Of a stretch of 11,146 nucleotides of DNA, positions 443-11,146 are shown piece after piece. Source of the DNA: Paracoccaceae bacterium (GTDB lineage: Bacteria > Pseudomonadota > Alphaproteobacteria > Rhodobacterales > Rhodobacteraceae). A program made the translations under genes and the position numbers. The stretch spans positions 1-11,146 of the forward strand of contig JALQUQ010000063.1 in NCBI GenBank assembly GCA_023263735.1, in the 5' to 3' direction. Position 1 is the first letter of the stretch. Each line of letters starts with the position of its first letter. The notes under the pieces were generated by a model, which did no database searches, had not been told where the DNA came from, and worked only from the letters and a program-made list of their open reading frames with translations.

Positions 443-1228
443 TCAGGACATGATCAATCCGCCATCGACGTTTACGGTTTGGCCGGTGATGTAGGCCGCA
501 TCCGCCGAAGCGAGAAAGGCAACCAAGGCGCCCACCTCGGCCGGTGTGCCTGCACGCCCCATCGGAATGCCCTCGACCCATTCGGCCATCAATTCTCCGG
601 GGCCGTAGGTGCCCAGCATCTGGCCCCAGACCCGGTCGTTATAGTCCCACATATCGGTGTGAATGATCCCGGGGCAGATCGCGTTCACGGTTATTCCCTC
701 GCGGGCCAGTTCCTTGGCCAGACTTTGCGTCAGCCCCACCACACCAAACTTCGACGCTGCATAGTGAGGTGTATAGATAAAGCCTTGCCGCGCTTGCCCC
801 GAGGCGGTGTTCACAAGTCGCCCCTTGATCCCCGAGGCCCGGAAACGGCGGATGGCCTCTTGGCAGCAGAGAAAAACGCCCTTGGTGTTGACGTCCAAGT
901 TAAAGTCCCATTCTCGCTCGGTCAGATCTTCGACCTTGGCGATTGTGATGACGCCCGCATTTTGGACCGAAACCGACAGGGGCCCCAGTGTGGATTCGAT
1001 TTCGCCATATGTGGCTTTGATGGCGGCGGCATCGGTCACATCCAGCACATAGCCACTGACCTTTGCCCCGGTCGCTTCGGCGATCATGCGCGCGGCGTCG
1101 GGCGTGTCTTTGTCGATGGCAGCGATGGCAACATTGGCCCCCTCTTGGGCGAACCGCGTCGCGATGCCCCGGCCGATGCCCTTGTTGCCCCCCGTTACCA
1201 TCACCGTTTGGCCTACAAATCGCTGCAT
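443..1228 (-). CDS. SDR-family NAD(P)-dependent oxidoreductase, probable polyol/sugar dehydrogenase
   Basis: Classical short-chain dehydrogenase, 261 residues, the usual length. The cofactor loop is TGGNKGIG (12-19), NAG is at 90-92, and the catalytic set is N114, S143, Y156 and K160 (YAASK). The C-terminus carries the usual NVDGG motif (253-257). The substrate loop is aromatic-rich (TDMWDYNDRVWGQMLG, 191-206), a style seen in sorbitol/galactitol-type dehydrogenases. The residue at the end of beta-strand 2 that is normally Asp in NAD enzymes is Ala37 (VAIAAID), so cofactor choice is unclear. The start is fixed by GAGGGAGA just upstream. It is the last carbohydrate gene of the leftward operon, 28 nt after the SorC regulator. 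It probably interconverts a polyol and a ketose ahead of the kinase; the substrate cannot be read from sequence. Confidence 0.85.
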   Translation of the reverse strand: MQRFVGQTVMVTGGNKGIGRGIATRFAQEGANVAIAAIDKDTPDAARMIAEATGAKVSGYVLDVTDAAAIKATYGEIESTLGPLSVSVQNAGVITIAKVEDLTEREWDFNLDVNTKGVFLCCQEAIRRFRASGIKGRLVNTASGQARQGFIYTPHYAASKFGVVGLTQSLAKELAREGITVNAICPGIIHTDMWDYNDRVWGQMLGTYGPGELMAEWVEGIPMGRAGTPAEVGALVAFLASADAAYITGQTVNVDGGLIMS

Positions 1229-1256
1229 CTTCTCTCCCTCTGGCGCTGTTTGGATG

Positions 1257-2207
1257 TCAGGCCGCCAATCTGGCCGCCGTGAATTTGTCTGTGACGAGGA
1301 TGTCGATAAGTCCCATTTTCAGGGCCCCGGCGATGGCCTCGGTCTTTGAGGCACCGCCCGCCAGAGCCATAACCCGATCGGCCTTTTTCAGGGCTTCGAG
1401 GGAAATTCCGATGACACGTTCGTTCAAGGGGGTAATCACCGGCCGACCGTCCTTGTCGTAAAAGCGGAACGAAATCTCGCCAATCGCCCCAGCCTCATGA
1501 AGCAGCGCCATTTCTTGTTTGGAAAAGACGTTGCCCGAACGGGCAAGAAGTTCTGATGGCTCCACCGCCCCGATCCCCACCACGGCAAGGCTAAGGCGAT
1601 CAAAAAGGTCCATCGTTCCCCGGACGACCGGGTCCGCCAACATCACCAACTTTGCCTCGCGCGAGGAGGTGATCCCCTGCACCAGCAACAGGCGTGCATC
1701 TGCCCCGGTCAGCCGCGCAAAGCGCGAAATGAGTTCGGTCGCATGGGTCTGCACGGCGGAATCCCCCATGCCCCCCAAGATCTGAACGATGTGTTTGGCT
1801 TTGACGCCGCGAAATGGGTGAATGTTATCCACCATTTTCAGAATGGTCTGGCTCCAACTGGAAACGCCGATGATCTCTTCGGGTTGAAGTGTCGCCTCCA
1901 GAAAATGCGCCGCGGCTTCGCCAATCCGCGCCATGATCGCGCCATCGCGATCTTCGGAACAGTCGACCACAATGGCTTCGGTCAGGCTGTACCGTTGCCG
2001 AAGCGCCGTTTCCAGTTCGGCATAGGTTCCCGGCGGCGGGATGACGGTGGTGCGCACAATGGCTTCTTGTTCGGCCCGCTTCAGCATTCGGGAAACGGTC
2101 GCCTGTGACATCCGCAGTTGCCGCGCGATCTCGGCCTGACGTTTCCCCTCCGAATGGTACATCTGGGCAATCCGTGCAATCAGACGCAGCTCGTTGACCC
2201 TGGACAT
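1257..2207 (-). CDS. SorC/DeoR-type sugar-binding transcriptional regulator
   Basis: A 316-residue SorC-family regulator. Residues 20-46 form the helix-turn-helix (RQAEIARQLRMSQATVSRML). Residues 60-316 form the NagB-like effector domain with family landmarks GVSSWSQT (114-121), GGMGDS (145-150), VVGIGAVEPSELL (209-221) and AGGASKTEAIAGAL...LVTDKFTA near the C-terminus. Members of this family sense a phosphorylated or free sugar intermediate and bind palindromic operators. The start ATG follows GAGGGGAG at about 5 nt. The gene lies inside the catabolic operon, between kinase and SDR, so it most likely controls this locus. A palindrome (2222-2235) sits directly ahead of it and recurs at both divergent promoters. 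Inferred role: substrate-relieved repressor of both operons; activation cannot be excluded. Confidence 0.92.
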   Translation of the reverse strand: MSRVNELRLIARIAQMYHSEGKRQAEIARQLRMSQATVSRMLKRAEQEAIVRTTVIPPPGTYAELETALRQRYSLTEAIVVDCSEDRDGAIMARIGEAAAHFLEATLQPEEIIGVSSWSQTILKMVDNIHPFRGVKAKHIVQILGGMGDSAVQTHATELISRFARLTGADARLLLVQGITSSREAKLVMLADPVVRGTMDLFDRLSLAVVGIGAVEPSELLARSGNVFSKQEMALLHEAGAIGEISFRFYDKDGRPVITPLNERVIGISLEALKKADRVMALAGGASKTEAIAGALKMGLIDILVTDKFTAARLAA

Positions 2208-2221
2208 CTCGCTCCCCTCAA

Positions 2222-2235
2222 TGAATTTTTATTCA
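2222..2235. promoter_or_regulatory. Candidate SorC operator A (TGAATTTTTATTCA)
   Basis: Perfect inverted repeat (ATGAAT, TTTT, ATTCAT if the flanking bases are included) placed 14 bp ahead of the regulator's ATG. It overlaps the last two codons and the TAA stop of the kinase gene. It differs from operator C in one central base. Its place suggests autoregulation from an internal promoter, or a roadblock to transcription entering from the kinase gene. Confidence 0.55.
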
Positions 2236-3695
2236 TCGTTAGTTGAAAGCGGATGATAGGTCGAGCGGGCAATGGCGTCTTTCCAGATCAGCAAACGGGC
2301 GGCGGCATCGGATGCCTGAGGCTCCAAGAGGTGCCCCCCCCGGGGAAGGGCTGCAACCTCGTCAAGCCCGGACCACAGACCAAGGGCCAATCCCGCCAGA
2401 TAGGCCGCGCCAAGGGCCGAGGCTTCGGGCGCGTCGCACTGAATGATCGGATGGTTCAGCGTATCTGCAACGCATTGCATCAAAAAGGTATTCTTGCTTG
2501 GGCCACCGTCTGCGTACAGCCTTCCAAGCGGCGTGGGCGACTGGCTGGACATGGCTGCAAAAACGTCATGCGCCTGAAATGCCATCGAATCCGTCACAGC
2601 GCGCGCCATCTGTGCGCGGTTCGTGTTGAACGTGATGCCGCAAAACAGGGCTCTTGCATCCGCATGCCAATGCGGCGCACCCAAACCGACGAACGCGGGC
2701 ACAAATCCCGGACCATCTGGCGCGGCTGTCGCAGCCAGATCGGTCAAGGCCTGAACATCCGAAAGCCCCAGCAAATCAACCATCCATGGCAAAGCGGCTG
2801 CGGAAACAAGGATGTTCCCTTCGAACGCATAGGTGGCCTGACCGTTGAGGGACCACGCGATTGTGGTCGTGATTCCATGTTTCGGCGCAATGAATTCGGG
2901 CAATGTGGTCATGATCGATGACCCGGTTCCGAATGTCACCTTGCCATCGCCCGGCTGAAATGCGCCATGGCCGAAAAGGGCGGCATGGCTATCGCCAATC
3001 GCCGCACAGACCGGTATCCCGTCGGCCAGATTTGATAATCCGCGCGTGACACCGAAAATCGATGCGCTGTCCTTGACCGTTGGAAGGCTGCTCTTTGGCA
3101 CGCCGAAAAGGCTGCAAAGCTCGTCGCTCCACTCCATGCGTTTCAGGTCAAAAAGCTGGCTGCGGGCCGCATTTGACGCATCGCAAGCATGGACCTCCCC
3201 GCCCGTCAGGCAATGGATCAGCCAACTGTCGATTGTGCCCAGACGCACCTTGGCAGTGCTTGGCACGCGGTCGATCAGCCAGCGCATCTTTGGGCCGGGA
3301 AACATCGGATCGATCGGAAGCCCCGTCAGTTCTTCGACTCGGGCCGCATGACCTTGGGCGGTCAGGGTGGCGCAGACTTCCGTTGTGCGGCGGCACTGCC
3401 AACTGACCACCGGGCCCAACGGTTTGCCCGTATCGGCATCCCATGCGGTGACGGATTCTCTTTGATTGGAAATCGCAATGCCAAGAACCGTAATCCCCGG
3501 GGCGTCGCGCAGGCAGTTCGAAATCGCCTCCTGCACCGACTCCCAAATCCGGAGAGGGTCTTGCTCGACCCAACCCGGATGGGGATGGTGGATGCCAACC
3601 GGTGCCGCCCCCCGCGCAAGGATTTCGCCTCCTTCCGAGACGAGGACCGCCTTGGAATTGGTTGTGCCCTGATCAATCGCGAGAATGGCGCGCAT
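2229..3695 (-). CDS. FGGY-family carbohydrate kinase (GlpK-like fold, altered substrate pocket)
   Basis: Full-length FGGY kinase, 488 residues. The N-terminal phosphate loop is DQGTTNSK (8-15), ISNQRES is at 75-81, W99 lies in WQCRRT, FGGY signature 1 is MFPGPKMRW (131-139), the catalytic Asp is D235 (AIGDSHAALFG), the ATP loop is FGTGSS (255-260), and the second ATP region is DGGPSKN (396-402). It aligns well by eye with E. coli glycerol kinase. Arg, Glu, Trp and Asp contacts to glycerol are kept (R79, E80, W99, D235), but the Tyr135 and Phe270 equivalents are Met131 and Ser260. It therefore probably phosphorylates a larger or branched polyol or ketose. GGAG lies 8 nt before the ATG. Between the transketolase pair and the regulator, it should make the phosphorylated ketose that the transketolase uses. 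Ketose kinases such as apulose kinase are the leading analogy. Confidence 0.88.
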   Translation of the reverse strand: MRAILAIDQGTTNSKAVLVSEGGEILARGAAPVGIHHPHPGWVEQDPLRIWESVQEAISNCLRDAPGITVLGIAISNQRESVTAWDADTGKPLGPVVSWQCRRTTEVCATLTAQGHAARVEELTGLPIDPMFPGPKMRWLIDRVPSTAKVRLGTIDSWLIHCLTGGEVHACDASNAARSQLFDLKRMEWSDELCSLFGVPKSSLPTVKDSASIFGVTRGLSNLADGIPVCAAIGDSHAALFGHGAFQPGDGKVTFGTGSSIMTTLPEFIAPKHGITTTIAWSLNGQATYAFEGNILVSAAALPWMVDLLGLSDVQALTDLAATAAPDGPGFVPAFVGLGAPHWHADARALFCGITFNTNRAQMARAVTDSMAFQAHDVFAAMSSQSPTPLGRLYADGGPSKNTFLMQCVADTLNHPIIQCDAPEASALGAAYLAGLALGLWSGLDEVAALPRGGHLLEPQASDAAARLLIWKDAIARSTYHPLSTNDE

Positions 3696-3722
3696 TTCAA
3701 CTGCTCCAGAAGAAGGGGGAAG

Positions 3723-3756
3723 CGGGGCGTGACAAAGGGAGGATCATCGCGCCCCG
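3723..3756 (-). other. Intra-operon GC-rich hairpin between transketolase and kinase genes
   Basis: The 77-nt gap between the two genes holds a 7-bp perfect GC stem (CGGGGCG on the minus strand, 3756-3750, with CGCCCCG, 3729-3723), extendable by two pairs past one mismatch. The loop is about 20 nt. No clear U-run follows. It could be an RNA processing or stabilising stem, or a weak attenuator that lowers kinase expression relative to transketolase. Confidence 0.3.
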
Positions 3757-3772
3757 ATCATCCAAACGCGGA

Positions 3773-4741
3773 TCAACCGCGCCCAGATTTTCTTGCGATC
3801 AAGGCTTTGGCGGCCTCGGCCACCGCTGCCGGCGACATGCCGAATTCATCCAGAAGGAATTCGGCAGACCCGGTTGGCGCAAAGATGCCCGGAACGCCCA
3901 GAATTTTCATGGGCGCGGGGGCCTCGGCAACGACGACCTCGGCAATCGCGGACCCAAGGCCCCCATAGGTCGAGTGTTCCTCGGCCGTCAGGATTGCGCC
4001 CGTGTCTTTCACAGCCGCAACGACGGCCTCGACGTCAATGGGTCTGACCGTGGCCATGTTCAAAACACGGGCCTCAATCCCCTCGCCGGCCAGAATTTCG
4101 GCCGCCTTGACCATTCTGTGCGTCAGCGTCCCGTTTGCAATCAGGGTAACGGCATCCCCATCGCGAAGCAGATCGGCCTTGCCCGGTTGAAAGACATGGT
4201 CCTTGGGCAACAGATCCGGCACACCCACGCGCGACAGACGCAAAAAGACGGGCCCGTCAAAGGTCGCGGCCCATTCGACAGCGGCGGCCGTTTCGATGGA
4301 ATCGCAGGGCGCGATTACCGGAAGGTTCGGCAAAACCCGGGTCCAGGCAAAATCTTCGATCGAATGATGCGTTGGCCCAAGTTCACCATAGGCCATGCCG
4401 GACGAGATCCCGACAAGTTTCACATTGGCATTCGAATAGGCAATGTCGGCCTTGACCTGTTCCAGTGAGCGGCCGGTCAAAAAGCAGGCTGCGGCGCAGA
4501 CAAAGGGCAAGAGGCCGCCATTGGCCAGACCAGCCCCAACGCCAACCATATTCTGTTCGGCGATGCCGACGTTGATCAGGCGATCGGGAAACTGAGATTT
4601 GAAGCCACCCAGCTTTGATGATCCGACCGAGTCGTTGCAGACCGCAACCACGCGCCCGTTTTCAGCGCCAAGTCGTTCCAGCGTCGCGGCAAAGGCGTCT
4701 CGGCAGTCATGCAGTTTCGGCGCGTTGGAAATGGCGTTCAT
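3773..4741 (-). CDS. Transketolase, C-terminal subunit (split transketolase)
   Basis: 322 residues covering the pyrimidine-binding and C-terminal domains of transketolase. NVGIAEQNM (57-65) carries the glutamate (E62) that activates thiamine diphosphate. GPTHHSIEDFA (122-132) is the conserved active-site His/phosphate loop, and the C-terminal domain ends with the usual GxxG/EEHSTYGGLGSAI region. It lacks the diphosphate domain, which is encoded by the adjacent upstream gene, so the two products should form one alpha/beta enzyme. Its ATG overlaps the TGA of that gene (ATGA, 4741-4738), a sign of translational coupling and fixed stoichiometry. Split transketolases are found both in central metabolism and in dedicated sugar pathways. 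Placement beside a sugar kinase and importer argues for a dedicated enzyme, as in AptAB-type apulose-4-phosphate transketolase, though substrate is inference. Confidence 0.9.
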   Translation of the reverse strand: MNAISNAPKLHDCRDAFAATLERLGAENGRVVAVCNDSVGSSKLGGFKSQFPDRLINVGIAEQNMVGVGAGLANGGLLPFVCAAACFLTGRSLEQVKADIAYSNANVKLVGISSGMAYGELGPTHHSIEDFAWTRVLPNLPVIAPCDSIETAAAVEWAATFDGPVFLRLSRVGVPDLLPKDHVFQPGKADLLRDGDAVTLIANGTLTHRMVKAAEILAGEGIEARVLNMATVRPIDVEAVVAAVKDTGAILTAEEHSTYGGLGSAIAEVVVAEAPAPMKILGVPGIFAPTGSAEFLLDEFGMSPAAVAEAAKALIARKSGRG

Positions 4742-5562
4742 GACTGTGCCTCCGAAAGTTCCGCGATGGCGATCTTGTATTGTTCAGCGTTTGGCACACG
4801 ATGATGCCAGTCGGCGCGGTCTTGCATGAACGAAATGCCATGGCCCTTGTTGGTATGGGCCACGATGCAATGGGGCCGGTCGCCACGTTTTTCCAAAGCC
4901 GGAACGATTTCTGCCATGGCATTGCCGTTGATCTCGGTCACGTCCCACCCAAAGGAGGTGAGCTTTGACGAAAACGGCGCCAGATCGTTGGTTTCCTTTA
5001 GCGACGCGCCCTGCTGGAAACGGTTGTGATCAATGATCAGGGTCAGATTGTTCAATCCGAATTGGGCCGCAGAACTGATTGCCTCCCAGTTTGACCCTTC
5101 TTGCATCTCACCATCGCCGGTCAGGACATAGGTGTGGTAATCGGCGGACAGGATCTTGGCTGCCTTGGCCATGCCAACCGCAACCGGAAGCCCGTGACCC
5201 AAGGGGCCGGTGTTTGTTTCCACGCCCGGAACCTTGTTGCAATTCGGGTGGCCATTCAGGCGCGAATGCGGCTTCAGGAACGTGCTGATCTCCTCTTCAG
5301 GAAGAAACCCGCGCTTGGCCAAAGTGATGTAAAGCGCAAGCGCCACATGCCCCTTTGAAAGCACGAACCGGTCGCGATCCGGGTGTTTGGGTTGATCGGG
5401 CCATATGCGCAGAACGCGGAAATAGAGCGCGGTCAAGATATCGATTGCCGACATCTCTCCCCCAATATGGCCAGCGCCAGCCTCATAAACGGCCTGCACG
5501 TCGCGGAGACGGATCTGCCGTGCGATGCGCTCGAGATCGTTCGGCTGCATGGTTCCTCGCAT
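4738..5562 (-). CDS. Transketolase, N-terminal subunit (split transketolase)
   Basis: 274 residues forming the diphosphate-binding half of transketolase. The early glycine-rich GAGHIGGEMSAIDIL (30-44), SKGH (69-72), NTGPLGHGLPVAVGMA and the thiamine-diphosphate/Mg motif GDGEMQEGSNWEA ending in DHN (GDG-x-N type) are all present. A second conserved part is HTNKGHGISFMQ. The farthest-upstream ATG is 5562-5560, but it has no ribosome binding site and lies in a palindrome just below the predicted promoter. The ATG at 5550-5548 (residue 5 of the longer form, MQPNDLERIA) has GAGGA close upstream and leaves operator B in the leader, so I think it is the likelier start. It heads the leftward operon and works with the next gene as a heteromeric enzyme transferring two-carbon units from a ketose phosphate. 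Confidence 0.9.
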   Translation of the reverse strand: MRGTMQPNDLERIARQIRLRDVQAVYEAGAGHIGGEMSAIDILTALYFRVLRIWPDQPKHPDRDRFVLSKGHVALALYITLAKRGFLPEEEISTFLKPHSRLNGHPNCNKVPGVETNTGPLGHGLPVAVGMAKAAKILSADYHTYVLTGDGEMQEGSNWEAISSAAQFGLNNLTLIIDHNRFQQGASLKETNDLAPFSSKLTSFGWDVTEINGNAMAEIVPALEKRGDRPHCIVAHTNKGHGISFMQDRADWHHRVPNAEQYKIAIAELSEAQS

Positions 5563-5575
5563 GAATATTTATACA
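5562..5575. promoter_or_regulatory. Candidate SorC operator B (TGAATATTTATACA)
   Basis: It differs from operator C at one position, which breaks the palindrome in one arm. It lies 7 bp downstream of the predicted minus-strand -10 box, covering the expected transcription start. A regulator bound here would block the transketolase-led operon. It also touches the first possible ATG of that gene. Confidence 0.5.
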
Positions 5576-5581
5576 GTTACT

Positions 5582-5612
5582 AATATACTTGCCGATCCAG
5601 TCAATCTGTCAA
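5582..5612 (-). promoter_or_regulatory. Predicted promoter of the leftward (transketolase) operon
   Basis: On the minus strand, TTGACA (5612-5607) is a perfect -35 box and TATATT (5587-5582) a 5/6 -10 box. They are separated by 19 bp, slightly longer than ideal. The expected start of transcription falls near 5575, inside operator B. Called by eye on consensus only. Confidence 0.45.
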
Positions 5613-5691
5613 GCTGGAAATGCAATAACAGAGCGCAGGGCTGAATGAAATTGATGATTGACACAGCGCAAGAGCCTGCGTTACGAATTAA

Positions 5692-5721
5692 TTACCCTAA
5701 CTGAATATTTATTCATATAAT
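5692..5721 (+). promoter_or_regulatory. Predicted promoter of the rightward (ABC transporter) operon
   Basis: A perfect TATAAT (5716-5721) directly abuts operator C. The -35 is weak (TTACCC at 5692-5697, 18-bp spacer), which would fit an activator-helped or leaky promoter. An isolated perfect TTGACA at 5658-5663 lies further upstream but has no good -10 partner at 17-18 bp. The ribosome binding site GGGAGGA is at 5743-5749. Confidence 0.45.
5702..5715. promoter_or_regulatory. Candidate SorC operator C (TGAATATTTATTCA)
   Basis: Perfect 14-bp palindrome (TGAATAT with ATATTCA-type symmetry broken only at the centre) in the spacer between the predicted -35 and -10 of the transporter promoter. 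Binding there would exclude RNA polymerase. It is the best-matching copy of the motif shared by operators A and B. Confidence 0.6.
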
Positions 5722-5753
5722 ATCTTTAGGGCGCGGCAACGAGGGAGGACTCC

Positions 5754-6731
5754 ATGCTGACGCAATCGAACCGTCAGATCGAAACGCCTGGCGGCAATAT
5801 CCTGGCCTCGGCCAAGGGTGCAACCGGGCCTTTGATCGGGCTGATCGCTCTTTGCCTGTTCCTCACTTTGTGGACCGATACGTTCTTTTCTCTGCGGAAC
5901 TTTCTGAACATCCTCGATCAGATCACCGTCCTTGGGATCATGGCCGTCGGAATGACCTTGGTTATCTTGATTGGTGGGATCGACCTTTCGGTTGGGTCCG
6001 TCATGGCCCTGACCATGATGGTGATGGGGTATCTGAATGTTGAGGCCGGTTTGTCCATGGGCCTTGCAATTCCACTTGCCCTTTCGACAGCCGCGCTGAG
6101 CGGGCTGATCTGTGGGATCATGATCACCCGGTTCAACGTTCCAGCCTTTATCGCGACATTGGCAATGATGTCGATCACACGCGGCCTTGCAAGCATGATC
6201 ACCAACGGCCAGCAAATCATCGGATTCCCCGCATGGTTCAACCTGTCCGCGATCGTCCGATACGGTGGCTTTCTGACGCTGACCGTCGCCTTGATGTTGG
6301 CCGTTTTCGTCATCGGGCTCTTGTATCAGCGCTACCGGTATGGCGGACGTGCGCTTTATGCAATCGGCGGCAACCCAGAGGTCGCACGTCTGGCTGGCAT
6401 CAACGTGCCCTTCGTGACCGTGATGGTTTATACGGTTTGCAGTGTTCTGGCGGGGTTGTCCGGCATCGTTCTGGGGGCCCGGCTTGACTCGGTCCAGCCT
6501 TCTTCGGGCGTCGGCTATGAACTTGATGCCATTGCCGCCGTCGTCATTGGCGGAACGTCCTTGTCGGGCGGAACCGGCGGGATCGGAGGAACCGTTGTCG
6601 GGGTGCTGATCATCGGCGTTCTGCGCAACGGTCTGAATTTGCTCAGCGTTTCGCCCTTTATGCAGCAGGTGATCATTGGCCTGGTGATTGTTTTGGCGGT
6701 CACCGCGGAAACGTTCCGCAAAAAGCGCTGA
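5754..6731 (+). CDS. CUT2-family sugar ABC transporter permease (RbsC-like)
   Basis: 325-residue inner-membrane permease of the ribose/xylose/autoinducer-2 type. It has about eight to ten hydrophobic segments (first near residues 26-40), the family signature GGIDLSVGS (74-82), the cytoplasmic coupling loop ALYAIGGNPEVARLAGI (200-216), and YELDAIAAVVIGGTSLSGG (255-273), which is highly typical of RbsC. The start is set by GGGAGGA five nucleotides upstream of the ATG. It is the first gene of the rightward operon and should form a homodimeric channel energised by the double ATPase two genes downstream. The order permease, binding protein, ATPase is less common than the ribose-type order, in which the ATPase comes first. 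Confidence 0.93.
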   Translation: MLTQSNRQIETPGGNILASAKGATGPLIGLIALCLFLTLWTDTFFSLRNFLNILDQITVLGIMAVGMTLVILIGGIDLSVGSVMALTMMVMGYLNVEAGLSMGLAIPLALSTAALSGLICGIMITRFNVPAFIATLAMMSITRGLASMITNGQQIIGFPAWFNLSAIVRYGGFLTLTVALMLAVFVIGLLYQRYRYGGRALYAIGGNPEVARLAGINVPFVTVMVYTVCSVLAGLSGIVLGARLDSVQPSSGVGYELDAIAAVVIGGTSLSGGTGGIGGTVVGVLIIGVLRNGLNLLSVSPFMQQVIIGLVIVLAVTAETFRKKR

Positions 6732-6772
6732 CAGACTTCTCCAGGTGTCGGTTGCGCATCTGGTTTGCAAGA

Positions 6773-6794
6773 CGACGGACGAAATCGTCCGTCG
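6773..6794 (+). other. Perfect hairpin in the leader of the binding-protein gene
   Basis: Two 10-bp arms, CGACGGACGA (6773-6782) and TCGTCCGTCG (6785-6794), are separated by AA. No U-run follows, so it is not a standard terminator. It lies 42-63 nt past the permease stop and about 65 nt before the binding-protein start. It probably acts as an mRNA 5' stabiliser or processing boundary that raises binding-protein output. As DNA it could instead be a regulator site. Confidence 0.5.
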
Positions 6795-6859
6795 AACAGG
6801 GAGGGGCAGTCCATATGCATGATGCGAGGTCGCCCCATTTCATGTCGGAGGAGACATAC

Positions 6860-7798
6860 ATGAAACTCAAGAACGTGATGATGGCCGCCACTGCATGCGT
6901 GGCTCTGTTCTCGCCGCTTGGAGCGTCCGCAGAAGGCGTCACCAAGATCGGTCTCGCCGTTCCGAACCTGCAGGCAGACTTCTTCAACCAGATCAAGATC
7001 GGCGTCGAAAAATATGCCGGTGAAAAGGGCATCGAGGTGATCGTCGTCGACGCCAAGAACGACACGGCAACCCAAGTCAGCCAAGTTCAGGATCTCATGA
7101 CCCAGGGCATCAATGCCTTTATCTACATTCCGGCCGGGGCAGCCGCCGCCGCAGTTCCGACCCGTCTGGCCCGTGAAGCGGGCATTCCGGTGATCAACGT
7201 CGACCGCGTTCCGGATGGCGCCCCCGGCGACACCTTTATCGGTGGTGAAGGTGTGAACTCTTCTTATCAGGTCTGCAGCGAGATCATCAAACGGGCGGGC
7301 GGCGCTGGCAAGATGGTCATCATTCACGGCCAAAAAGGCACCACCCCTGAAATCGATCGCACCGAAGGCTGCATGAAAGCCATTGGCGAAAATTCCGGCG
7401 TGGAACTGGTCGATGAACAGTGGACGGAGCGCTGGTCGGCAGACGAAGGCTTTGCCATCACCCAAAACATGCTGACCGCTCATCCCGACATCACCATGAT
7501 CTTTGGTCAGGCCGATGGCATTGCCATGGGTGCAGCCAAGGCGGTCGATGTGGCCAATCTGTCGGACAAAGTTATCATCGGCGGGTATGATGGCGACGGC
7601 TCGGCCCTGGAATATCTGGCCACCTGCAAGGGCCCGTTCGTCGTGACCGCAACGCAAAGCACGCGCCGCATGGGCCGTCTGGCAGTCGACTCCGCCTTGG
7701 CCGTGGCTGCCGGCGAAAAGGTCGAAGAGCGTCAGGTTTCCGAAGCGGTTCTGACCACCTGTGACAACGCAGCCCAGTTCGTGGCGGATCACCCGTAA
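6860..7798 (+). CDS. Periplasmic sugar-binding protein of the CUT2 ABC importer (RbsB-like)
   Basis: 312-residue precursor. Residues 1-24 are a signal peptide (positive MKLK, hydrophobic core, ASA before E25). The mature part is a type I periplasmic binding fold: IGLAVPNLQADFFNQI (30-45), FIYIPAGAAAA (87-97), NVDR (113-116), IHGQKGTTPEIDRTEG (155-170), FGQADGIAMGA (215-225), GGYDGDGSAL (241-250), ATQSTRRMG (264-272). Aligned by eye with E. coli RbsB, Asp/Arg, Arg, Asp and Gln sugar contacts are kept (D115, R116, R167, D244, Q266), while the Asn13 and Asn190 equivalents are Ala39 and Ala218. The ligand is therefore related to, but not the same as, ribopyranose. Start choice: GGAGGAG (6847-6853) fits this ATG. 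An in-frame ATG at 6815 with GGGAGGGG upstream would add 15 residues before the signal peptide. It delivers substrate to the permease encoded just upstream. Confidence 0.92.
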   Translation: MKLKNVMMAATACVALFSPLGASAEGVTKIGLAVPNLQADFFNQIKIGVEKYAGEKGIEVIVVDAKNDTATQVSQVQDLMTQGINAFIYIPAGAAAAAVPTRLAREAGIPVINVDRVPDGAPGDTFIGGEGVNSSYQVCSEIIKRAGGAGKMVIIHGQKGTTPEIDRTEGCMKAIGENSGVELVDEQWTERWSADEGFAITQNMLTAHPDITMIFGQADGIAMGAAKAVDVANLSDKVIIGGYDGDGSALEYLATCKGPFVVTATQSTRRMGRLAVDSALAVAAGEKVEERQVSEAVLTTCDNAAQFVADHP

Positions 7799-7819
7799 TC
7801 AGCGAAAGGCATCAGTGCC

Positions 7820-9307
7820 ATGACCCAGCCGTCACCGATCTTGTCGCTTCGCCGGATTCGAAAATCTTATGGTTCCGTCGAAGTTCTTCATGGGGTCGAC
7901 CTGGACATTTTTCCAGGAGAGGTCGTGGCGCTTTTGGGCGAGAACGGGGCCGGGAAATCAACGGTTTCAAACGTGATTTCCGGAACCGTTCCGCCATCTT
8001 CCGGTGAAATGACATGGCTCGGGGCGCCTTACGCCCCGGCCAACCCACGCGAGGCGATAGATGCCGGTGTCGGCATGATCCATCAGGAGTTGAAACTCCT
8101 TCCGCAACTCAGCATCGCGGAAAACGTCTTTGTCGGCCGCTATTTGATGAAAGGCGGCCGGATCGACCGCAAGACGATGGAAGTGCGCGCGCAATCCGGG
8201 CTCCAGCGACTGGGACTTGAAATCCCGCCCTCCCGCAAGGTTGAGGGTCTGTCCACCGCCAATCAGCAACTTATCGAAATCGCAAAAGCGCTGACATTGA
8301 ACGCGCGGTTGTTGATCCTTGACGAGCCGACGGCCGCGCTTGGTGGGGAAGAAACGCAACTTCTTTTCCGTCAGATTGAGCGACTGAAGACCGAGGGCGT
8401 CGGCATCATCTATATCTCTCATCGACTGGAAGAAATTCGCCAGATCGCCGACCGGGTCGTCGTCATGCGCGATGGATCGAAAGTGCAGGAATTCGACCGT
8501 GGCGACGTTCCCGTGCGGACAATCGTCGAAGCTATGGTCGGCCGGTCTTTGGAGCGGATGTTTCCCGCCATCCCCGCGCCCTCCGAGGAAACGATGCTGG
8601 AAGTCACGGGCTTGACCTCGCCCGAAGACCGTTTTCGCAACGTTACCTTCTCTGTTAAAAAGGGCGAGGTGTTTGGCATCGCGGGGCTCATGGGGGCCGG
8701 GAGGACAGAATTGGTCCGTGCCATCACGGGTGCCGATCCAATCGCCAAAGGCACCGTGAAAATCGAGGGCCGCGACATAACCCCCCGCTCCCCGCGAGAG
8801 GCGATCCGGAACGGGATGGTTCTTGTGCCCGAAGACCGAAAGCTTCAAGGCGTCGTCTTGCAGCATTCGATTGCCGAAAACATCGGATATGCAAATCTGG
8901 ATGAGCTGACCAAATCTGGGTGGATCACGTCGCGCAAGCTTCACGGCTTTGCCAACGCATTCATCAAACAATTTGGCGTCAAAGGCATGGGCTCGCAGAA
9001 TGCGGGGGAACTTTCGGGCGGCAACCAACAAAAGGTGGTGCTGGCGAAATGGCTGGCACGCAAGCCGCGCGTCGTGGTTCTGGATGAGCCAACCCGCGGT
9101 ATCGATGTGGGCGCCCGTTCCTCAATCTACGAACTTGTCATGGAATTGGCACGCAGTGGCGTCGCCGTTATCGTGGTGAGTTCGGACCTCGAAGAGGTCT
9201 TGGGCGTCTCCAATCGGATCATGGTGATGGCGCAAGGCAATCAATCTGGCATTCTCGATCGGAAGAACGCCAATGATGTGTCCATCATGGAACTGGCCAC
9301 ACGCTGA
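7820..9307 (+). CDS. Sugar ABC transporter ATP-binding protein with two ATPase domains (RbsA-like)
   Basis: 495 residues with two fused nucleotide-binding domains, as in RbsA/XylG/MglA. Domain 1: Walker A GENGAGKST (40-48), Q-loop Q89, a signature altered to LSTANQQ (144-150), Walker B LLILDEPTAAL (164-174), switch His201. Domain 2: degenerate Walker A GLMGAGRTE (289-297, Lys replaced by Arg), EDRK near 338, a clean signature LSGGNQQK (398-405), Walker B VVLDEPTRGID (419-429). This pairing of one good Walker A with one good signature is normal for the family and leaves one full ATP site. It starts 21 nt after the binding-protein stop behind a weak AAGG-type site. It powers the importer formed with the two upstream genes. 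Confidence 0.93.
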   Translation: MTQPSPILSLRRIRKSYGSVEVLHGVDLDIFPGEVVALLGENGAGKSTVSNVISGTVPPSSGEMTWLGAPYAPANPREAIDAGVGMIHQELKLLPQLSIAENVFVGRYLMKGGRIDRKTMEVRAQSGLQRLGLEIPPSRKVEGLSTANQQLIEIAKALTLNARLLILDEPTAALGGEETQLLFRQIERLKTEGVGIIYISHRLEEIRQIADRVVVMRDGSKVQEFDRGDVPVRTIVEAMVGRSLERMFPAIPAPSEETMLEVTGLTSPEDRFRNVTFSVKKGEVFGIAGLMGAGRTELVRAITGADPIAKGTVKIEGRDITPRSPREAIRNGMVLVPEDRKLQGVVLQHSIAENIGYANLDELTKSGWITSRKLHGFANAFIKQFGVKGMGSQNAGELSGGNQQKVVLAKWLARKPRVVVLDEPTRGIDVGARSSIYELVMELARSGVAVIVVSSDLEEVLGVSNRIMVMAQGNQSGILDRKNANDVSIMELATR

Positions 9308-9322
9308 ACAAGGAAAACGACG

Positions 9323-10111
9323 ATGGATAACATCACTCTCAACGCGCCAAAAATGTTCGATCTGACCGGCGAAGTTGCATTGGTCACCGGAGCAGGCAGC
9401 GGCATTGGCCAACGGATCGCCATGGGTCTGGCCCAATGCGGCGCCGATGTCGCTCTGCTTGATCGCCGCACCGACGATGGTTTGGCCCAGACCGCAGATT
9501 TCATAGCCCGGGTGGGCCGCAAGAGCATTCAGATTTCGGCCGATGTCACCTCGGGTGACGCATTGAACGAAGCCGTCGCGCGCACAGAGGCCGACCTTGG
9601 CCCCCTGTCTTTGGCGTTGAATGCCGCCGGTATCGCCAATGCCAATCCCGCCGAAGACATGGCAGAAAGCCAATTCCAGACGATGATGGACATCAACCTG
9701 AAAGGGGTCTTCCTGTCCTGTCAGGCCGAAGCCCGTGCGATGCTGAAGAATGGCCGTGGATCCATCGTCAATATCGCCTCGATGTCGGGCGTCATCGTCA
9801 ATCGGGGCCTGATGCAATGCCACTATAACGCATCCAAGGCGGGCGTCATCCATATGTCAAAATCCATGGCCATGGAATGGGTGGGCCGCGGCATTCGCGT
9901 CAACACGATCAGCCCCGGCTACACGGCAACGCCCATGAACACGCGCCCCGAAATGGTGCATCAGACCAAACTGTTCGAAGAGCAGACCCCGATGCAGCGG
10001 ATGGCAACCGTAGATGAAATGGTCGGACCCGCCGTCTTTCTCCTCTCCAACGCAGCAAGCTTCGTAACCGGCGTCGACCTGCTGGTCGATGGCGGATTCT
10101 GCTGCTGGTGA
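9323..10111 (+). CDS. SDR-family oxidoreductase, probable NAD-dependent polyol dehydrogenase
   Basis: 262-residue classical short-chain dehydrogenase. TGAGSGIG (22-29) binds the dinucleotide, and Asp47 at the end of beta 2 (ALLDRR) favours NAD, though the following Arg48-Arg49 could tolerate NADP. Also visible are NAAG (100-103), N124, S153, and Y168 with K172 (YNASK). The C-terminus LLVDGGFCCW is of the type seen in arabinitol/xylitol/sorbose-class SDRs. It lies 15 nt behind the ATPase gene with AAGGAAAA as ribosome binding site and is the last gene of the rightward operon. It probably oxidises the imported polyol to a ketose, or reduces a ketose. It is clearly not a recent duplicate of the other SDR in this locus: the cofactor loop, substrate loop and C-terminus all differ. 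Confidence 0.87.
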   Translation: MDNITLNAPKMFDLTGEVALVTGAGSGIGQRIAMGLAQCGADVALLDRRTDDGLAQTADFIARVGRKSIQISADVTSGDALNEAVARTEADLGPLSLALNAAGIANANPAEDMAESQFQTMMDINLKGVFLSCQAEARAMLKNGRGSIVNIASMSGVIVNRGLMQCHYNASKAGVIHMSKSMAMEWVGRGIRVNTISPGYTATPMNTRPEMVHQTKLFEEQTPMQRMATVDEMVGPAVFLLSNAASFVTGVDLLVDGGFCCW

Positions 10112-10429: not shown

Positions 10430-11146
10430 TCAGAACCCAGTCTCCCTAATAATGGTGCCTGCCACTAGGCGCCAGATGCGCCCCGCATAGCTTTCTGCAC
10501 GTCCGTCCAAGCGCAAGTGGGCGTGCTCCATCCGGGTTGCCATAATCGGCGTCACCGACGTCAAGTGTACACGATAGACCGGCGTTACAGGGACCAGACG
10601 CCCGTCCCGATCGGTTCGTGAAGCTACTGGTCCACCGTGTACAGACGAAAGGAGTGGATAAGGAAGGTCGTCGAGGCTGAAGGCATCAATGCCGTCGACA
10701 CGCACCTCAACCGGCCTCAGGCCGTCACTGGAAAAATGCAGCCGGCCGGTACTGCCGATTTCGATGCGCGCAATATCGCTTTCCGAAACGAACCCATCAA
10801 CCGTTATTTCTGACAGATCAGCCAGGACGAAAATGGGTTCACCGCGACCGACCCAATCCGCAGCAACCAAACTGTCCGCGCGTTCGACGACCATGGCATC
10901 GAAGGGAGCGCGGATATCGAGCAGATCAATCTCCGCTTCGACACTGCGCAACTGTTCTGCGCGACTGGCTCGTTCGCTAATCAGGACACTGACCCGTTCT
11001 GTCAGCGTATCGCTTCGCCCGGACATGCCGATCATACGATCCAGATTCTCGAGCTCCAACCGAAGACGATCGGCTTCGTATACCAGTTGCGGCGACGAAA
11101 GCAGGGCAATCCGCACGCCGCCTCTGACCTCCTCACCCTGCTCCGC
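10430..11146 (-). CDS. HlyD-like membrane-fusion/adaptor protein, C-terminal part (runs off the window)
   Basis: The frame is open to the window edge (upstream codons read EQGEEVRGG, typical of a lipoyl/biotinyl half-motif), so at least 238 C-terminal residues are visible and the true start is outside. A GTG at 11116 is not needed as a start. In order: first lipoyl half-motif with LLSSPQL, a helical hairpin of about 50 residues (YEADRLRLELENLDRM...RAEQLRSVEAEID), the second lipoyl half-motif (DIRAPFDAMVVE), then beta-barrel segments (WVGRGEPIFVLAD, TVDGFVSESDIARIEIGSTGRLHF). The ending LRLDGRAESYAGRIWR...IIRETGF resembles proteins in which a HlyD domain follows an M50 metalloprotease-like membrane part, rather than standalone RND adaptors. 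That resemblance is from memory. It bridges inner membrane and periplasm in export. It lies on the element side of the tRNA remnant, so it is probably horizontally acquired. Confidence 0.75.
   Translation of the reverse strand, partial: AEQGEEVRGGVRIALLSSPQLVYEADRLRLELENLDRMIGMSGRSDTLTERVSVLISERASRAEQLRSVEAEIDLLDIRAPFDAMVVERADSLVAADWVGRGEPIFVLADLSEITVDGFVSESDIARIEIGSTGRLHFSSDGLRPVEVRVDGIDAFSLDDLPYPLLSSVHGGPVASRTDRDGRLVPVTPVYRVHLTSVTPIMATRMEHAHLRLDGRAESYAGRIWRLVAGTIIRETGF

Follow-up and report, generated by a model that had tools for sequence, protein, structure and literature searches.

A probable D-apiose-type operon pair of a Paracoccaceae bacterium with two short-chain dehydrogenases in place of an isomerase

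Apiose is a rare, branched sugar of plant cell walls and flavonoids, and a D-apiose pathway of the Pectobacterium type with ApsI, AplK, and AptAB was reportedly described by Carter et al. in 2018. AplK phosphorylates apulose, and the transketolase AptAB uses glyceraldehyde 3-phosphate and releases dihydroxyacetone phosphate. In Escherichia coli STc131 and STc14, the D-apiose cluster contains no apsI and instead two putative oxidoreductases that were hypothesized to replace it, and cluster-positive strains grow on D-apiose, whereas K-12 does not (PMC13001218, accessible parts). Here, we analyze a locus from a Paracoccaceae bacterium (assembly GCA_023263735.1, contig JALQUQ010000063.1). The window, i.e., the whole stretch of 11,146 nucleotides that was analyzed, is the entire contig C600 of a draft genome of 3.2 Mb in 740 contigs that is 86% complete. 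Scans of open reading frames and with Pfam and NCBIfam identified nine intact reading frames on this 11.1 kb contig, which are arranged in two divergent operons: on the minus strand the N- and C-terminal transketolase subunits (TK-N and TK-C), an FGGY kinase, a SorC regulator, and the short-chain dehydrogenase (SDR) SDR1, and on the plus strand the permease, the binding protein, and the ATPase of a CUT2 importer, followed by SDR2. With a probability of about 0.64, we regard this locus as an apulose-centered operon pair of the D-apiose type in which the SDR pair replaces the isomerase.

The isomerase-less D-apiose cluster of E. coli STc131 is the closest published system. In E. coli SE15, the region ECSF_RS02670-02715 encodes two SDRs, a CUT2 importer together with a DUF2291 gene, an FGGY kinase, SorC, TK-N, and TK-C. 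The SDR pair, a CUT2 importer, the FGGY kinase, SorC, the split transketolase, and the absence of a clustered ApsI are common to this region and the window, whereas the importer subtype with its DUF2291 gene and the gene order differ. The SDRs are the best conserved part (SDR2 63% and SDR1 55% identity, the latter to ECSF_RS02675), followed by TK-N (47%), SorC (42%), TK-C (41%), the kinase (39%), the ATPase (39%), the permease (36%), and the binding protein (23%). The Pectobacterium-type pathway, as found in the Sodalis and Rahnella clusters, shares with the window an AplK-like kinase, a split transketolase, SorC, and a CUT2 importer of another subtype, but has an ApsI-like isomerase where the window has the SDR pair. 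A first-pass annotation, made from the letters of the window alone, had listed a CUT2 importer, two dissimilar SDRs, an FGGY kinase, a two-gene transketolase, and SorC in divergent operons, and all nine genes are indeed present. Its apiose lead via AplK and AptAB and its suggestion that SDRs stand in for the isomerase are supported by the E. coli cluster, which has the same composition, contains no ApsI, and has two SDRs that match those of the window one to one. It had also named a clustering of the SDRs and the kinase with a characterized pathway for another sugar as an outcome against its proposal; they do cluster with a described pathway, but this pathway is that of apiose. The isomerase-less variant as such is not new, as this counterpart has already been published for E. 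coli and was there proposed to work without the isomerase (PMC13001218, accessible parts). Beyond this source and papers on RL2718-RL2725 of Rhizobium leguminosarum, we found no literature on the cassette or its closest relative, as judged mostly from listings.

The nine genes form a real and widespread unit. A scan with the kinase in one genome per species gave 309 matches, the best 80 loci of which were retained, and a gene was counted as present when tblastn gave at least 120 bits and at least 50% identity. The complete set of nine genes was found in 60 of these 80 loci, and 58 of the 60 have the gene order of the window, including L046 with an extra SorC-like copy; in the other two, L070 and L072, SDR1 adjoins SDR2. 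Among the 20 incomplete loci, L060, L067, and L078 are short or cut stretches, L077 and L080 are distant clusters, and L091 belongs to a different cluster type. The kinase was accompanied by at most weak ABC matches in 13 of the 80 loci. On annotated plasmids of Sinorhizobium, Agrobacterium, Pararhizobium, Shinella, and Rhizobium, the same cassette has differing flanks and therefore behaves as a single unit; it was also found in one record filed as Roseateles that is flagged as unverified. The grouping of the nine genes is thus not due to chance. The cassette has a ribB gene in its vicinity in 34 of 85 pair loci (84 distinct ones, as L147 equals L026), including L095, L096, L098, L101, and L107, but ribB was set aside as a pathway gene in view of an FMN riboswitch in all five ribB loci scanned and the opposite orientation in L096.

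Several sources call relatives of the kinase glycerol kinase, as would be expected if a transketolase of central metabolism and a glycerol-type kinase were chance neighbors. Besides the conservation of the nine-gene unit, the genome itself makes this explanation hardly credible, as a PF02779 search found two transketolase sites, namely the window pair and a second, full-length enzyme on C82. In an 18-row tree, 14 split pairs, all of them from apiose-like clusters and with other kinds of split transketolases outside the tree, were separated from four full-length enzymes, including that of the same genome, by a fully supported branch. The split pair is therefore neither the only transketolase of the genome nor grouped with the central-metabolism enzymes, which the first-pass annotation had named as an outcome that would speak against its proposal. 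The kinase likewise differs from glycerol kinases. It stays below both glycerol kinase cut-offs of NCBIfam (441 of 590 and 440 of 498 bits), and in a tree of 34 rows (antisense frames L118, L120, and L121 as well as L122, ArthA, ArthB, and XylB were dropped, and the correct L118 row of the source genome was added), it forms one group of 18 rows with AplK and with kinases from Bryobacteraceae, Deinococcus, Kribbella, and Methylobacteriaceae (support 100/99). E. coli GlpK and the GlpK of the source genome are in a separate group of 14 rows, and the kinase L081 is outside both groups. The window kinase departs from the GlpK signature, as Tyr135, Phe270, and Gln246, which we take to belong to this signature as well, are replaced. 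Arg83, Glu84, and Asp245 are kept in 24 cluster kinases, with Ser at position 246, no Phe270 (a gap beside Ser), and Met or Leu at position 135 in 23 of them and Tyr in L106. The published signature comprises Arg83, Glu84, Tyr135, Asp245, and Phe270 (PMC3245297, accessible parts).

Whether an isomerase could supply apulose was addressed in the window, in the source genome, and in other carriers. The label ApsI refers here to place and family in the Sodalis and Rahnella clusters and not to a comparison with the assayed Pectobacterium enzyme. The window contains no ApsI. The source genome has a single match, an ApsI-like gene at G000:C3:4340-5749 (L117:1489-2955) with 46% identity to the Sodalis gene, and within the 4.4 kb examined, no cassette gene lies beside it. 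Judged by eye, this gene is flanked by an apparent ABC permease and a multicopper oxidase. The first-pass annotation had made novelty depend on the absence of an isomerase gene elsewhere in the genome, which does not hold in view of this gene and of genes 79-80% identical to it that lie beside the cassette in L047 and L069. When 31 other cassette genomes were searched (the L047 genome and E. coli SE15 are outside these 31), the genome of L069 gave a strong match and one other genome a weak match. As the remaining 29 of the 31 genomes gave no ApsI match, no entry other than the SDR pair is apparent in most of the carriers searched, although this is not provably so in the source genome. Among 398 sampled Pseudomonadota genomes, SDR2 (E 1e-75 or better) was found in 19, including the source genome, ApsI in 4, and both in the source genome only. 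As 19 and 4 of 398 with an overlap of 1 are too few, we made no statistical argument of a mutual exclusion of the two genes.

The ApsI-like proteins share 16-20% identity with E. coli FucI, and the sole NCBIfam model matched by their genes is that of sulfoquinovose isomerase, with at best 119 of 700 bits, far short of its cut-off. Split transketolases also occur in a sulfosugar route, as SqwGH is a split sulfofructose transketolase, and L101, one of seven annotated plasmid neighborhoods, has an annotated sulfite oxidase close to the cassette. Nevertheless, a sulfosugar route with a transketolase of the SqwGH type is extremely improbable, since the SDRs match the apiose cluster, the other six annotated neighborhoods contain no sulfur-sugar gene by name, and the kinase is present in all 85 pair loci, a count that is biased, as most of these loci were fetched via the kinase.

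The two SDRs belong to different subfamilies. SDR2 scores 493.7 bits on the NCBIfam equivalog PRK06114 (cut-off 360), which its counterpart in the E. coli apiose cluster also passes, whereas SDR1 passed no cut-off among the 25 models listed of 231 matched. In a tree of SDR1, both the window group and its E. coli counterpart are well supported, and an open fork joins them. Asp at the end of the second strand is associated with NAD preference in SDRs. SDR2 has this residue (Asp47) in 79 of 79 aligned members, and the galactitol dehydrogenase 2wdz, the second-best solved relative, has it as well. At the corresponding position, SDR1 has Ala in 72 and Ser in 5 of 77 aligned members (close relatives included in both counts), whereas Asp is found in all four solved SDR1 relatives shown, which include an NADH-dependent reductase. 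From these motifs, SDR1 is probably NADPH-linked and SDR2 probably NAD-linked. The SDR2 family is used differently on an Arthrobacter plasmid (L108:1-12682), where an SDR2-like gene (55%) is accompanied by genes for FGGY kinases, a class II aldolase, and a dehydrogenase E1.

Variant clusters combine parts of the window with parts of known apiose clusters. SDR1, the kinase, and the split transketolase are present in 14 of 18 other SDR2 loci (in L158, TK-C runs off the stretch), none of these 14 contains ApsI, and the remaining four, with SDR2 at 58-60% identity, are without SDR1, kinase, and split transketolase. L155, L156, and L157 have an AptAB-type transketolase (67-70% identity to E. coli) together with the window-type importer and SDR pair. 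In L160, both importer types accompany the SDR pair and an AptAB-type transketolase, and its importers possibly serve two substrates for one pathway. In L077 from Bryobacteraceae, which has no SDR, an ApsI-like isomerase (57%) comes after TK-N, TK-C, kinase, and SorC of the window type. In L047, the full cassette is followed by an ApsI-like gene with 80% identity to that of the source genome, and in L069, the full cassette is accompanied by an importer of the E. coli type and by an isomerase with 79% identity to the same gene. A third cluster type in Caballeronia, a relative, and Methylobacteriaceae (L106:4549-13783, L202, and L091) has an SDR1-like gene and a GolD/DthD-type dehydrogenase along with an E. 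coli-type importer, an FGGY kinase, and a split transketolase. The second importers in L069 and L160 look as if two compounds were taken up, and together with the ApsI-like gene of the source genome and the relationship of SDR2 to galactitol dehydrogenase, they would suit import of apiitol itself, with the SDRs as two polyol dehydrogenases that differ in stereochemistry or cofactor and the aldose left to a separate isomerase. We consider this unlikely, as carriers of the E. coli cluster grow on D-apiose although that cluster combines the SDR pair with the other importer alone and contains no ApsI, and as an ApsI match is missing from nearly all of the cassette genomes searched.

From gene content, conservation, relationships, motifs, and hybrid clusters, we infer all substrates, cofactors, and reaction directions of the preferred apiose-type scheme. 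The CUT2 importer would take up D-apiose or apiitol, SDR1, probably with NADPH, would reduce apiose to apiitol, and SDR2, probably with NAD+, would oxidize carbon 2 of apiitol to yield apulose. Two redox steps would thereby take the place of one isomerization, as in the fungal use of xylose, where xylose reductase is followed by xylitol dehydrogenase. As proposed, both routes would lead from aldose via polyol to ketose with unlike cofactors; the route of the window would differ in being bacterial, in assigning both steps to SDRs, and in its sugar. The AplK-like kinase would convert apulose to apulose 4-phosphate, from which the split transketolase would transfer the C2 unit to glyceraldehyde 3-phosphate, so that xylulose 5-phosphate and dihydroxyacetone phosphate are formed. 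Dihydroxyacetone phosphate as a product fits the position of tpiA, which adjoins SDR2 in 6 of the 85 pair loci. In Sinorhizobium meliloti Rm41 (L095:745-4397), tpiA and the genes of a full-length transketolase and a fructose-6-phosphate aldolase lie downstream of the importer operon in the same orientation. SorC may sense an intermediate and govern both promoters. The specific proposal of an oxidoreductive isomerization, in which the NADPH-dependent reduction of apiose by SDR1 and the NAD+-dependent oxidation of apiitol by SDR2 would trade NADPH for NADH and permit the use of both apiose and apiitol, is more tentative than the apiose-type reading as a whole and somewhat short of even odds. Equally tentative is the view that this redox shunt spans rhizobia, Rhodobacteraceae, enterobacteria, other Pseudomonadota families, and Deinococcus.

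A number of observations weigh against the apiose-type reading. The kinase and the transketolase are only 39-47% identical to AplK and AptAB, the kinase is hardly closer to AplK (39.6%) than to GlpK (36.0%), and the binding protein has 23% identity to its E. coli counterpart. At TktA positions 461 and 520, window-type pairs have Ser and Arg, whereas AptAB-type pairs have Asn and Gly. Loss of Asp469, which is common to the window and AptB, is non-specific, and Asp469 to Leu was rejected as a diagnostic exchange, as Leu occurs in 18 of 25 other split transketolases (Gln in 5, Gly in 1, Phe in 1). Residues 358 and 385 were set aside, as two analyses conflict at these positions. The window and E. 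coli groups are each well supported in the tree of SDR2 and are joined at 89/88 only, and SDR2-like genes without any such cluster (L161-L164) nest in the larger SDR2 group. Of the three solved relatives of SDR2 that were listed, only galactitol dehydrogenase has the Asp, and the other two have Ala. The Caballeronia-type clusters keep SDR1 and have the GolD/DthD-type dehydrogenase in the place of SDR2, and the kinase of L106 is outside both kinase groups. L079 from Agrobacterium has the transketolase pair, the kinase, and SorC, with no SDRs or importer within 21 kb. Furthermore, isomerases of E. coli itself might supply apulose in cluster-positive strains.

Expression data from a relative are a further such point. 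In R. leguminosarum 3841, RL2718-19 are two transketolases, RL2720-22 a CUT2 system, and RL2725 a short-chain dehydrogenase; RL2720-22 were induced 4- to 25-fold by arabinogalactan, whereas neither arabinose nor galactose induced them, and arabinogalactan was suggested as the substrate (PMC3333776, accessible parts). By gene content alone, RL2718-RL2725 fits the layout of L107 (Rhizobium sp. CCGE532), in which RL2720, a binding protein according to one paper and RbsA according to another, would be the permease. If the analogy holds, the inducer is derived from plants, and a response to arabinogalactan is not what apiose would predict. As far as the accessible parts of two further sources go, cbbT is the only one among four transketolases that is commonly needed in rhizospheres (PMC11103875), and RL2718 and RL2719 are coded NE and GN, which we read as non-essential and growth-neutral (PMC5118466). 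The arabinogalactan response beside two transketolase genes, the modest identities, the residues at positions 461 and 520, and the GolD/DthD-type dehydrogenase would all be compatible with another C4-C5 ketose, such as a tetrulose or an unbranched pentulose from a plant polyol, in which case the likeness to apiose clusters would reflect ancestry and not substrate. This is even less likely than import of apiitol, as hybrid clusters combine window-type parts with AptAB-type and ApsI-like parts, and as the 24 cluster kinases agree with AplK in their pocket residues, with L106 retaining Tyr135.

The binding protein keeps seven of what we take to be the ten ribose contacts of RbsB, with the exchanges Asn13 to Ala, Asn190 to Ala, and Phe164 to Trp, and eight relatives share these contact residues except for one Tyr in place of Phe15. 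Between the two operons, the sequence TGAATATTTATTCA is a candidate SorC operator: with at most two mismatches, it occurs in 76 of 77 homologous regions (window counted), compared with 3 of 1540 single-base shuffles, for a motif taken from the window itself and regions that are related. A scan of 5500-6900 for sigma-70-like promoters gave nothing above chance.

The features are compiled in Table 1, in which the names of the binding protein, the kinase, SDR1, and SDR2 are based on family. The genes of TK-N and TK-C overlap by 4 bp. At 10430-11146 on the minus strand, a fragment of an HlyD-type membrane fusion protein ends at the contig edge without a visible link to the cassette. A minus-strand frame at 3-452, which may resemble an integrase N-terminus, gave no Pfam match at E 0.1.

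Table 1. Genes and regulatory region of the divergent operon pair, in positions of the window.
Feature	Position	Strand	Remarks
SDR1 short-chain dehydrogenase	443..1228	-	Pfam adh_short_C2; proposed NADPH-linked aldose/polyol step
SorC/DeoR-type sugar-binding regulator	1257..2207	-	Pfam Sugar-bind; 42% to E. coli apiose-cluster regulator
FGGY kinase, AplK-like, proposed apulose kinase	2229..3695	-	FGGY_N/FGGY_C; AplK side in tree; pocket unlike GlpK
Transketolase C-terminal subunit (TK-C)	3773..4741	-	Transket_pyr and Transketolase_C; 41% to E. coli AptB
Transketolase N-terminal subunit (TK-N)	4738..5562	-	Transketolase_N; 47% to E. coli AptA
Divergent promoter region	5563..5753	.	Palindrome TGAATATTTATTCA at 5702-5715, candidate SorC operator
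CUT2 ABC permease	5754..6731	+	BPD_transp_2
CUT2 substrate-binding protein, RbsB-like pocket with changes	6860..7798	+	Peripla_BP_4; start 6860 probable
CUT2 ATPase	7820..9307	+	Two ABC_tran stretches
SDR2 short-chain dehydrogenase, proposed NAD-linked polyol 2-dehydrogenase	9323..10111	+	NCBIfam PRK06114 above cut-off

The present analysis extends the published variant to alphaproteobacteria and Deinococcus and adds to it the hybrid clusters, the cofactor motifs that differ between the two SDRs, and the candidate operator. The cassette is common among the rhizobial genomes examined. If the apiose-type reading is true, a widespread operon of root bacteria, for which arabinogalactan is the sole published substrate suggestion that we met, would gain a testable substrate, isomerase-less users of apiose would gain a mechanism, and a bacterial case of isomerization by a reductase plus a dehydrogenase would be added.

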